Shown in pieces: positions 27,242-38,229 of a stretch of DNA of 64,000 nt. Origin of the DNA: Halorarum halophilum (GTDB taxonomy: Archaea > Halobacteriota > Halobacteria > Halobacteriales > Haloferacaceae); assembly GCF_013401515.1 (NCBI RefSeq), contig NZ_CP058529.1, forward strand, positions 744,001 to 808,000, given 5' to 3'. The notes beneath the pieces were generated by a model. That model was not told the origin of the DNA. It saw nothing but the letters and a program-made list of their open reading frames with translations, and did not search any database. Made by a program: the position numbers and the translations under genes. Each line of letters begins with the position of its first letter. Position 1 is the first letter of the stretch.

Positions 27242-28414
<1,173 letters not shown>

Positions 28415-28472
28415 GGGCGCACGGTCGCGGCGCTGTGAGAAAAACTGTTGGGACGGGAACGTCCGAATTCGG

Positions 28473-29885
28473 TCAGTCCTCGCCGAGGATACCCGTGTGC
28501 GTCATCGCCTCGGGGTCGAGCACCTCGTCGGCCTCCTCCTCGGAGAGGTAGCCCTTCTCCAGGACTACCTCGCGGACGGTCTTGTCCTCCTTCAGCGCGG
28601 TCTTGGCGACCTCGCTGGCCCTGTCGTAGCCGATCGCGGGGTTGAGCGCGGTCGCGAGCGCCATCGACTGCTCGACGCGCTCGGCGCAGTACTCCTCGTT
28701 CGCCTCCAGTTTCGCGACGAAGCGCTCGCCGAAGACCGACGAGGCGTTCGCGAGGAGCTCCGTCGACTGGAGGAAGTTGTGCGCCAGCACCGGCTTGTAC
28801 AGGTTCAGGTCGATCTGTCCCTCCGCCGCGCCCGCGGCGACGGCGGCGTCGTTGCCGACGACCTGCTTGTGGACCTGGTTCACCGCCTCGGCGACGACGG
28901 GGTTGACCTTGCCCGGCATGATGCTGCTCCCGGGCTGGTTCTCGGGCTGTTCGATCTCGCCCAGGCCGTTGCGTGGGCCGGAGGCGAGCAGCCGGAGGTC
29001 GTTCGCGATCTTGTTCAGGCTCCCCGCGACCGTGCGGAGCGCGCCGTGCGCCTCGGCCATCGCGTCGTGGGCCGCCTGCGCCTCGAAGTGGTTGTCCGCC
29101 TCGCGGAACTGCGTGTTCGTCTCCTCGGAGATGTACTCCGCCGCGAGCTCGGGGAACTCGGGGTCGGTATTGAGCCCGGTCCCGACGGCGGTGCCGCCGA
29201 GGGCGAGTTCGCGCAGGTGGAAGCGCGTGTCGGCGACGCGCTTGATCCCCTTCTGTACCTGCGCGCGGTAGCCGCCGAACTCCTGGCCGAGTCGGACCGG
29301 CGTCGCGTCCTGGAGGTGCGTCCGGCCGGTCTTGACGACGCCGTCGAACTCCGCCTCCTTCTCCTCGAGCGCGGCGTGGAGCTCCTCCAGCGCCGGCATC
29401 AGGTCCTTCTCCACGGCCTCGAGCGCGGCGACGTGCATCGCCGTCGGGATCACGTCGTTGCTCGACTGCCCGAAGTTCACGTGGTCGTTCGGGTGGACGA
29501 CGCGGTCGCCGATCCCCTCGCCCATGAGTTCGGCCGCGCGGTTGGCGATGACCTCGTTCGCGTTCATGTTCGAGGAGGTGCCCGACCCCGTCTGGAACAC
29601 GTCGACGGGGAACTGGTCGTCGTGTTCGCCGGCGATGACCTCGTCGGCCGCCTCCGTGATGGCCCCAGCCACGTCCTCGTCGACGTGACCGAGGTCACGG
29701 TTCGCCCGCGCCGCGGCCTTCTTGACTACGCCCAGCGCCCGGACGAACCGTCGGCCGAAGCTGATTCCGGAGATGGGGAAGTTCTCGACCGCGCGCTGGG
29801 TCTGTGCGCCCCAGTACGCGTCGGCCGGGACCTCCATCTCGCCGAGGCTGTCGCGTTCGATGCGGTAGTCTCCGTCGTCGCTCAT
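28473..29885 (-). CDS. fumC: Fumarate hydratase, class II
   Basis: A 470-residue class II fumarase interconverting fumarate and malate. Active-site segments are 'GSGTSSNMNANEV' (100-112), 'GQSSNDVIPTA' (139-149), 'TGRTHLQDATPV' with His190, and the mobile loop signature 'GSSIMPGKVNPV' (319-330). Length is normal. The start at MSDDGDYRI precedes the family's 'GEMEVPADAYWGAQTQRA'. An N-terminal extension in the open frame upstream is not supported. Confidence 0.96.
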   Translation of the reverse strand: MSDDGDYRIERDSLGEMEVPADAYWGAQTQRAVENFPISGISFGRRFVRALGVVKKAAARANRDLGHVDEDVAGAITEAADEVIAGEHDDQFPVDVFQTGSGTSSNMNANEVIANRAAELMGEGIGDRVVHPNDHVNFGQSSNDVIPTAMHVAALEAVEKDLMPALEELHAALEEKEAEFDGVVKTGRTHLQDATPVRLGQEFGGYRAQVQKGIKRVADTRFHLRELALGGTAVGTGLNTDPEFPELAAEYISEETNTQFREADNHFEAQAAHDAMAEAHGALRTVAGSLNKIANDLRLLASGPRNGLGEIEQPENQPGSSIMPGKVNPVVAEAVNQVHKQVVGNDAAVAAGAAEGQIDLNLYKPVLAHNFLQSTELLANASSVFGERFVAKLEANEEYCAERVEQSMALATALNPAIGYDRASEVAKTALKEDKTVREVVLEKGYLSEEEADEVLDPEAMTHTGILGED

Positions 29886-32866: not shown

Positions 32867-33141
32867 GGACGTAGCTAGAGCCTTCCCGCTCGGTTTGGTC
32901 CACGTTCCCCGGGAGACCCCGGAACCGACAGACTCGCGGTAGCCGACGAGTACAGGGTGAACCGCCGACGTACAGATCCGGTCGATCGGATGCACCTCCT
33001 TACCGCCACGACCCCGCCAACCGATCGAGCGGATGAACCGACAATCGAACGTTACCTTCGAAAATGGACCTGCCTACCGAGCGCCGAAACGTCGAACGAT
33101 GTTCCGTTTTTATTCGCCTGAGCGTGGAAGAGTGAGACGCT

Positions 33142-34521
33142 ATGTCCGACAGTTCTGACCGACCGGGAGAGAGACGTATGTCGACGGACAGGGAGACGAT
33201 CCGCGAGTGGGCCGACGAACACGGCACGATTCCCGTCCGTCACCAGGAGGGCGACGCCGAGGGGTACCGCTTCGTCCGGGAGTCCGAGATGGGCGAAACC
33301 CACGAGCGCGTCGACTGGGACGAGTTCTTCACCCAGATCGACGAGGGCGACTACGTCGTCATCCACCACGGCGAAGGCGCCGACGAGACGTTCGAGGTGA
33401 CCGGGAGGCGGGACGCCTTGACCCGGATGGACCTCGAGCGCGAGGAGATGGAGGAACGCCTGCTCGAGGGCGAGACGGTGCGGAGCGAGATCACCGAGAC
33501 CACCGTGGTCGAGCGCGTCATCGTCGAGCACGCGACCGTCGAGAGCGAACTGATCGACACGGAGATCGTCGATCAACAGGTGGTCGACGTCGACCTCCTT
33601 CGGCGCGAGTGCACCGACTGCGAACTCGTCGATGACCGCGGAGTCGACGAGCAGGACCTGTTCGACACGAACCGATACTTCGAGAGCATCGGGGCGACGG
33701 ACTACGCTACCGGCGAGCCGATGGGCGCCCTCGGCCCGGGGGACGAACTCCCGTACCACGCGGAACTGGACGTGAAGGAGGCGTGGGCGGTCACGCGCGA
33801 GATCGACGAGCGACTCACGGTCGAGAGCCGCATCGTCGAGGAGGACGTCACGGAGACCGACACGGTCGAGGACCGGGACATCGACATCGAGGGGCTCCAG
33901 CAGACCATCGTCGAGAGCGACATCCTCGACGTCGACATGTCGGCAGACGAGGTCATGACGGAGTACGACGTCGAGACGGACATGAACGAGGACGAGACGA
34001 TCCTCACGTACTTCGACCGCCAGCGTCTGGTCGAAGACGAGGTCGTCGACCGGCGGCGCCTCCGTGCGGACGTCGTGGAGGGCGAGTTGCTCGGAATGGA
34101 GACGATCCACAGCGAGGACGTCGCCGAGACGACCCCCCAGGAGGAGGGGGTCGAGACGACCACGGCGGGCGCCACCGAGGCCGACACGAGCGAGACCGGG
34201 ACGGTCGCGACGAGCGACGCCGAAGTCGAGGCCGACGTCGCCGAGACGGGCGCGATCACGCTCACGGACGACGAGATCGGCAAGACGGTCGTGGATTCGA
34301 CCGGCGACGAGGTCGGGATGGTCACGGACGTCGACGACAGCGGGAGGATGATGTACATCGACCCCGAGCCCGGGATCGCGGAGCGGATCAGGGCCGCGCT
34401 CGACTGGGGCAGCAGCGACGACGACGACCTCCCCATCGAGTCCCAGCAGATCGAGCGGATCACCGACGAGGCGGTAGAGCTGAAGGGGGCCGACGAGATG
34501 GAGGGGAGTGTAGGACGCTGA
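33142..34521 (+). CDS. Acidic five-residue-repeat protein with C-terminal PRC-barrel
   Basis: A 459-residue, strongly acidic protein. Residues about 15-90 form an unknown alpha/beta domain ('REWADEHGTIPVRHQEGDAE'). Residues 111-170, 223-283 and about 295-330 show a clear five-residue period such as VVERV-IVEHA-TVESE-LIDTE and LTVES-RIVEE-DVTET-DTVED, suggesting a beta-helix. Residues 340-372 are a Thr/Glu-rich linker, and 373-447 a PRC-barrel ('LTDDEIGKTVVDSTGDEVGM'). No membrane segment or signal. TTTTTATT about 27 bases upstream indicates a leaderless start at 33142. Function unknown; PRC-barrels often mediate RNA or protein contacts. Confidence 0.85.
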   Translation: MSDSSDRPGERRMSTDRETIREWADEHGTIPVRHQEGDAEGYRFVRESEMGETHERVDWDEFFTQIDEGDYVVIHHGEGADETFEVTGRRDALTRMDLEREEMEERLLEGETVRSEITETTVVERVIVEHATVESELIDTEIVDQQVVDVDLLRRECTDCELVDDRGVDEQDLFDTNRYFESIGATDYATGEPMGALGPGDELPYHAELDVKEAWAVTREIDERLTVESRIVEEDVTETDTVEDRDIDIEGLQQTIVESDILDVDMSADEVMTEYDVETDMNEDETILTYFDRQRLVEDEVVDRRRLRADVVEGELLGMETIHSEDVAETTPQEEGVETTTAGATEADTSETGTVATSDAEVEADVAETGAITLTDDEIGKTVVDSTGDEVGMVTDVDDSGRMMYIDPEPGIAERIRAALDWGSSDDDDLPIESQQIERITDEAVELKGADEMEGSVGR

Positions 34522-37392: not shown

Positions 37393-38229
37393 ATGGCAAA
37401 CACGCCCCGCCGCTGGGTACTGGCACTGGCGCTCGTGATGGTGACGGCACCGGCGGCGGGTCCACTGGTCGCCGCCCAGGAGGGGGAGGACCGGTCGGAG
37501 CCGCCGGGGGTGACCGACGGGGAGCTGGACTCCTCGACGTCGTTGCTCCGGGCCCACACGTCGGCGCTCCTCGCGGACGGGTTCTCGGCGAACGGGTCGG
37601 CCAACGTGACGGTCTACCGGCGGGGCGTCCTCGTCGACGTCCACCGAACCGCGAACCGGTCCGTGGTGGTCGACGGTGCCGAGTACCGCCAGTCCCAGCA
37701 GACCGACGCGAAGGCTACCGTCGGGTCGGCCACCCGGGGGACGGAGTTCTGGGGGAACGACAGCGTCGAAGCCAGACAGCGGGTCGAGAACGGTCGGACG
37801 AGCTACGAGACAGGGGAGGGGAAGTCCAACGGTAGCCTCTCGGCGGCGTTCCTCATGCGGCCGTACCTCCGCTCGGCCACCTACACGGTGACCGACACCG
37901 GAACCGCGAACGGGAGCAGTTCGTCCGGCGAACCCATCGGCGGCGAGATGCGCTACACCCTCACCGCGACCGAACTGGAGAACGCGACCCACATCGAGAC
38001 CCAGCTTCCCAACGGCGCGTCCGACCCCCGCAACTTCAGCGCGACCGTCGTCGTTGACGAGGACGGGCGCATCCACGAGTTCGACGCCACCCTCGACTAC
38101 ACGATCAAGGGCAGCGACCGGACCCACACGATTTCGTTCGACCTCCAGGAACTCGGCGTCTCGTCGGTCTCCCGACCATCGTGGGTCGGCGAGGCCCTGG
38201 GGGAGACCGGCACTACAACCGGAACGTGA
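37393..38229 (+). CDS. Exported beta-rich protein rich in N-glycosylation sequons
   Basis: A 278-residue protein with a Sec signal peptide ('RRWVLALALVMVTAPAAGPLVAA', cleavage near residue 28) and no lipobox. The mature part begins 'TSLLRAHTSALLADGFSANGSANVTVYRRG', a layout seen in haloarchaeal DUF7537-like surface proteins, and holds at least eight N-x-S/T sequons ('NGS', 'NVT', 'NRS', 'NDS', 'NAT', 'NFS'), consistent with a glycosylated cell-surface protein. Function unknown. The neighbouring convergent gene encodes a membrane glycosyltransferase-like protein. Confidence 0.75.
   Translation: MANTPRRWVLALALVMVTAPAAGPLVAAQEGEDRSEPPGVTDGELDSSTSLLRAHTSALLADGFSANGSANVTVYRRGVLVDVHRTANRSVVVDGAEYRQSQQTDAKATVGSATRGTEFWGNDSVEARQRVENGRTSYETGEGKSNGSLSAAFLMRPYLRSATYTVTDTGTANGSSSSGEPIGGEMRYTLTATELENATHIETQLPNGASDPRNFSATVVVDEDGRIHEFDATLDYTIKGSDRTHTISFDLQELGVSSVSRPSWVGEALGETGTTTGT

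Follow-up and report, generated by a model that had tools for sequence, protein, structure and literature searches.

A family of acidic haloarchaeal proteins that joins five-residue repeats to a C-terminal PRC-barrel

PRC-barrel domains (PF05239) are found in proteins such as MTH1859, RimM, CdpB, and the reaction-centre H subunit. In YsnF-type proteins, the PRC-barrel is joined to a charged, valine-rich DUF2382 region, in the order opposite to that of the protein described here. Pentapeptide repeat proteins (PF00805; e.g. MfpA and HetL) have a five-residue period with hydrophobic residues at fixed positions. PRC-barrels of the MTH1859 type (1pm3) are thought to be adapters for hetero-oligomeric complexes (PMC3132758), in CdvA a PRC-barrel-like domain goes together with the ability to form filaments (PMC3132758), and CdpB1/2 are PRC-barrel division proteins that serve the haloarchaeal divisome (PMC12186497).

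Here we describe a gene of Halorarum halophilum, a haloarchaeon with a genome of 4.28 Mb, located in a stretch of 64,000 nucleotides (contig NZ_CP058529.1, positions 744,001 to 808,000), hereafter the window. The open reading frame has exact coordinates, with an ATG at 33142 and a stop at 34521 on the + strand, and encodes an acidic protein of 459 aa in which an N-domain is followed by two blocks of five-residue units (pentads), an acidic linker, and a PRC-barrel. Its features, in window positions, are as follows.

33107..33114, + strand: TATA-like element TTTTTATT, 28-35 bases upstream of the ATG, read directly from the sequence
33142..34521, + strand: whole gene, acidic protein of 459 aa with relatives annotated as "hypothetical protein" (from the ORF, the paralogue, the orthologues, and product names in plasmid records)
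33169..33441, + strand: N-terminal domain, aa 10-100, predicted alpha/beta and homologous to small stand-alone rhizobial proteins (profile A4, AlphaFold)
33460..33654, + strand: pentad block 1, aa 107-171, 13 units of [VTIL][VIT][ED]xx (periodicity, conservation, predicted strand at aa 130-164)
33610..33621, + strand: CxxC motif, C157-C160, the sole cysteines of the protein and a subfamily marker
33655..33756, + strand: insert, aa 172-205, missing from some homologues (alignments; pLDDT mostly <50 at aa 167-202)
33757..34146, + strand: second beta region, aa 206-335, predicted, including pentad block 2 at aa ~226-335 (periodicity, AlphaFold)
34138..34260, + strand: acidic low-complexity linker of ~40 residues, aa 333-373, between the repeats and the PRC-barrel
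34261..34488, + strand: C-terminal PRC-barrel, aa 374-449 (PF05239 and fold search)

An initial annotation of this DNA had placed a PRC-barrel at the C-terminus, and the assignment holds on both a Pfam profile above cut-off and fold matches. Specifically, PF05239 scores 22.4 bits against a cut-off of 21.2 in the genome search, and 18.2 bits, below threshold, when the protein is run through hmmscan. The fold matches of this region are mostly PRC-barrels, the best being 1pm3 (Z 7.3, rmsd 2.4, 62 residues), followed by 8onw and 2f1l (both Z 6.8), with RimM, an Archaeoglobus PRC protein, and CdpB among the matches. By contrast, sequence searches found no solved PRC protein to which the remaining ~370 residues are related.

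Filament formation in CdvA and the role of CdpB1/2 in haloarchaeal division (PMC3132758; PMC12186497) raise the prospect of a cytoskeletal or division component, i.e. a long arm that polymerises and bears a PRC head. With CdvA, the protein would share a PRC-barrel-like domain next to an elongated part, and its PRC region has weak fold similarity to CdpB (8qzo, Z 5.4) and CdvA (9s9g, Z 5.2), although these Z values lie within the background range. However, the elongated part is here predicted to be beta, lies N-terminal to the PRC-barrel, and is haloarchaeal, so that a single C-terminal PRC sits behind a beta-repeat region, unlike the N-terminal PRC plus coiled coil of CdvA or the PRC-only CdpB. 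The patchy spread of the family (115 of 392 genomes) is also unlike that of an essential division factor, and a scan of genes around the window copy includes neither ftsZ nor sepF. This role seems quite improbable.

The repeat every five residues that was initially read in the sequence is real: it follows [VTIL][VIT][ED]xx and is significant at lags 5 and 10. Residue classes were compared with 2000 shuffles, for which p = 0.0005 is the floor. The VILTMF class in aa 106-172 gives z = +5.2 at both lag 5 and lag 10 (p = 0.0005), and the acidic class z = +4.5 at lag 5, while hydrophobic residues in aa 223-330 give z = +3.6 at lag 5 and +4.1 at lag 10 (p = 0.001). The same test finds no lag-5 signal in the N-domain, insert, linker, or PRC-barrel. 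Of the three repeat stretches originally counted, the second and third share one register, so the repeats stand but their number becomes two blocks (aa ~107-171 and ~226-335). Similarly, the beta-branched residue said to recur at a fixed position is indeed fixed, but it is not single: two adjacent positions are hydrophobic or beta-branched, and an acid comes next.

Within block 1, all 13 units have V, I, L, or T at position b, and 85% have an acid at position c. The consensus over 30 homologues reads a[V.38, T.21, I.19, L.15] b[V.56, I.23, T.12] c[E.47, D.25] d[T.27, R.25, S.21] e[E.49], and the first ten units are free of indels and in register in nearly all of them, with L048 slipping at the tenth. 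TRF detects four tandem arrays only, of 20-63 bp; the pentad repeat is not a DNA tandem repeat and is kept at the protein level. Compared with a same-genus species, dN/dS is 0.23 for block 1, 0.28 for block 2, and 0.59 for the linker, and by these ratios purifying selection acts on both pentad blocks, with the linker under relaxed constraint. As the initial annotation stated, the consensus departs from the canonical pentapeptide A(D/N)LXX. No family in Pfam or NCBIfam covers the repeats, and PF00805 is unmatched in hmmscan of the family proteins and across the whole genome.

Short perfect pentad or decad repeats (EVINS, DLVDP, ELIDEELVEG) also occur in other archaeal genomes of the phylum (L100, L102, and L103), one of them at the end of an ABC-transporter ATPase ORF. 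We rejected these as family members outside Halobacteriales: the rest of the domains is absent, and the repeats are taken as chance.

AlphaFold models of the window protein (pLDDT 65.7, pTM 0.36) and of an insert-free Haloprofundus homologue (pLDDT 69.1, pTM 0.39) are both shallow, with 13 sequences each. Both have an alpha/beta N-domain and pentad blocks that contain very long strands (31-35 residues, pLDDT ~75-89). In the window protein, strands are predicted at aa 130-164, 205-235, 286-312, and 315-328; the onset of block 1 (aa 114-129) is of low confidence (pLDDT < 50), and predicted helices at aa 249-258 and 268-274 break the second beta region. In the homologue, strands at 131-165 and 170-201 (pLDDT mostly 84-89) are separated by a four-residue turn, which suggests that they pair as a long antiparallel hairpin. 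The predictions are thus beta, with neither coiled coil nor disorder in the predicted strands, and in this they agree with the initial annotation; they show no solenoid, and the beta-helix it had suggested finds no support, with strands that run on continuously for 31-35 residues in two shallow models, in place of short strands broken at corners.

Other sources on the fold include mean-field DCA on 132 sequences (effective 69), which gives no support to the hairpin register with full or reduced alphabets, is too weak to decide, and yields no clear couplings at separations of 10, 15, or 20. Foldseek finds no match to either model in the PDB at E < 0.001 and none in BFVD, and we found no sequence relative of the middle part in the PDB. 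VIA fold matches of the repeat reach Z 6.8 and are mixed (tail terminators, a collagenase helper, ribosomal proteins), in the background range. Matches to MACPF/gasdermin folds were rejected as kinship and attributed to long hairpins; a ColG_sub Pfam match (E 0.011) lends the collagenase match no corroboration, since it sits on the N-domain, outside the repeat. The long-strand reading of the pentad region is tentative, as both models draw on 13 sequences with pTM <0.4 and coevolution is uninformative for hairpin and solenoid alike.

One alternative is a true beta-solenoid, i.e. a pentapeptide-like right-handed quadrilateral helix that AlphaFold would have missed for having few sequences and that, as an acidic helix, could mimic DNA, its unit S/T/R-E/D-V/I-V/I-E/D being a variant form of A(D/N)LXX. 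Written d-e-a-b-c, the unit does resemble a pentapeptide repeat, and most homologues keep the pentads strict and without indels, as coils would be; 1 of 18 members also has a weak HetL match in NCBIfam (E 0.021). Yet PF00805 is unmatched, both models predict continuous strands and not coils, clear couplings at the separations given above are not apparent, and Arg is frequent (25%) at position d, which would hold the inward-facing i-2 residue. On this balance, a solenoid is unlikely. In the unit as found, positions a and b are hydrophobic, c and e acidic, and d is T, S, or R, a pattern that would suit a strand with one bulge per pentad. The pentads could then form an undescribed beta repeat fold, an intracellular rigid rod in the high-salt cytoplasm built either as a regularly bulged antiparallel ribbon or as an intertwined multimeric beta-fibre, an idea we put forward with considerable doubt. 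For the ribbon form, we propose that a and b face inward and the acidic c and e outward.

The N-domain (pLDDT mostly 70-86 in the window protein) is matched by no Pfam or NCBIfam model. Of the two profile searches first proposed, the one with the repeat unit returns nearly nothing outside the order, and the one with the N-domain reaches rhizobia at 58-60 bits. Specifically, profile A4 scores 60 bits on a Bradyrhizobium plasmid protein and 58 bits on Ensifer ORFs. These small rhizobial proteins (e.g. WP_247974110.1, Bradyrhizobium, 60 bits) are homologous to the N-domain but stand alone, without pentads or PRC-barrel; such small stand-alone proteins lie on Bradyrhizobium and Ensifer plasmids, with one homologue at L111:7013-7288(+). 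In other haloarchaea, the domain is fused to a lamin-tail domain (PF00932; L026:853-1719(-), L031:934-1752(-)), or carries a long low-complexity tail (L025) or a short conserved one (L028, L030). A conserved C-terminal tail, NHRD(E/D)EPFQS, is seen on short N-domain proteins at L028:1459-1887(+), L030:1501-1908(+), and L027:1384-2151. Found stand-alone in rhizobia and fused to varied C-terminal parts, the N-domain is, by its distribution, a mobile module. At the other end of the repeats, the linker (aa 333-373) is free of K and R and predicted to be disordered.

A strong match to the family (E < 1e-40) is present in 115 of 392 sampled Halobacteriales genomes (~30%), and a query with the N-domain and repeat matches 24 of 170 genomes of the host's family. 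For searches of genome contigs, a single-protein query found nothing, and an alignment query recovered relatives. Named members come from Natronosalvus, Natrarchaeobius, Haloarcula, Halorussus, Haloprofundus, Halegenticoccus, and Halohasta; the host belongs to the same taxonomic family as Haloprofundus, Halohasta, and Halegenticoccus. Megaplasmid copies occur in Halosolutus, Haladaptatus, Halorussus, and Haloarcula. All three annotated copies that we inspected have the product name "hypothetical protein", a literature search found no description of the family, and, as far as the searched libraries and papers go, it appears to be undescribed. Viral contigs and phages hold no relatives, and on that ground we abandoned a phage or defence reading.

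A paralogue with 44% identity lies in the same genome. In the tree, from which we disregard plasmid row L114 (a very long branch of odd composition, probably in the wrong reading frame), the paralogue groups with Natrarchaeobius and the window copy falls in a clade with support of 100/99. As the two are placed apart, they do not stem from a recent duplication; an old duplication with loss or a lateral transfer would both fit. Beyond the window's genus, members of the window copy's clade belong to other genera, mostly of the Natrialbaceae (placed via the member Natronosalvus), and all ten members of the clade carry CxxC at the end of block 1, in the window protein within RECTDC and in the clade accompanied by an RY-containing insert. 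This subfamily might act as a redox or metal sensor, with the pair C157 and C160, where the first strand ends, gating the rod or its assembly into oligomers; REC[TN]xC or close variants in all ten members, and the fact that these are the protein's sole cysteines, speak for it. The motif is nevertheless missing in most other homologues and therefore cannot be the core function, and we consider a sensor very improbable.

Single genes scattered over many haloarchaea, sometimes on plasmids, would also be in keeping with a stress-protective or osmoadaptive protein of the YsnF type, whose repeat would serve as a chaperone-like or membrane- or protein-coating surface. The pairing of a PRC-barrel with a charged, valine-rich region, as in DUF2382 proteins, is a lead in that direction. 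However, PF09557 (DUF2382) is unmatched in the window protein at E up to 10, 18 members match no DUF2382 family either, 60 related genomes lack it, and the domain order differs; a role of this kind is likewise unlikely.

The TATA-like element suggests a promoter of the gene's own and transcription without a leader, and its distance from the ATG is consistent with a single-gene transcript. Neighbours of the window copy encode an LbH/hexapeptide protein, an FAD-dependent oxidoreductase, an EamA transporter, and a xanthine/uracil permease. Nearby, at 37393-38229, a DUF7537 protein is encoded (31.9 bits, barely above cut-off), and genes for citrate synthase and class II fumarase are adjacent on the - strand (27242-29873). 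The gene neighbours of homologues had been suggested as a check, and comparison of the family loci finds no neighbourhood conserved beyond close relatives; apart from the family itself, clusters recur just in the Halohasta/MAG and Halorussus/MAG loci, with few exceptions. As such, operon context yields no function.

The explanation we prefer, tentatively and at somewhat less than even confidence, is a haloarchaea-specific, elongated adaptor of the cytoplasm. Its rod shape is predicted from the models, and the adaptor role is suggested by analogy with PRC-barrels of the MTH1859 type (PMC3132758). The pentads would build long beta strands in antiparallel order, reaching ~100 Angstrom at full extension, and these in turn a rigid rod whose beta-branched residues stack along its length and whose acidic residues face out, an exterior that would suit a high-salt cytoplasm. 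Such a rod would keep the N-domain and the PRC-barrel apart, the latter binding a partner protein from its flexible acidic tether as PRC-barrels of other assemblies do, and paired valines of neighbouring rods may allow oligomerisation into a scaffold. In favour of the adaptor are the agreement of two models on long strands, the PRC fold, the register conserved in 30 homologues, the purifying selection on both blocks next to a relaxed linker, the lack of any signal or TM segment, the wide spread in Halobacteriales, and the fusion of the N-domain module to other C-terminal parts. Against the rod, a strict five-residue period sits oddly with a plain beta strand and would call for regular bulges or a wrapped arrangement, the models are shallow (pTM 0.36 and 0.39), and DCA lends the hairpin register no support; nor did we find a partner, phenotype, or conserved neighbour for the family. 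The two roles first envisaged for the acidic repeat fare less well: a surface scaffold is unlikely, since no hydrophobic segment of the protein resembles a signal peptide or membrane anchor, and DNA mimicry has no specific support, with -22 to -24 net charges per 100 aa in the repeat and -17 to -27 in the other domains.

The family marks an annotation gap, being present in ~30% of sampled haloarchaeal genomes with most of its length outside any Pfam or NCBIfam model. Its five-residue period fits neither a plain beta strand nor a coiled coil, and the pentad architecture is unusual, new, and testable. One structure would add a repeat fold or show regular bulges building a rod of ~100 Angstrom, and the family may reveal how haloarchaea make cytoplasmic scaffolds.
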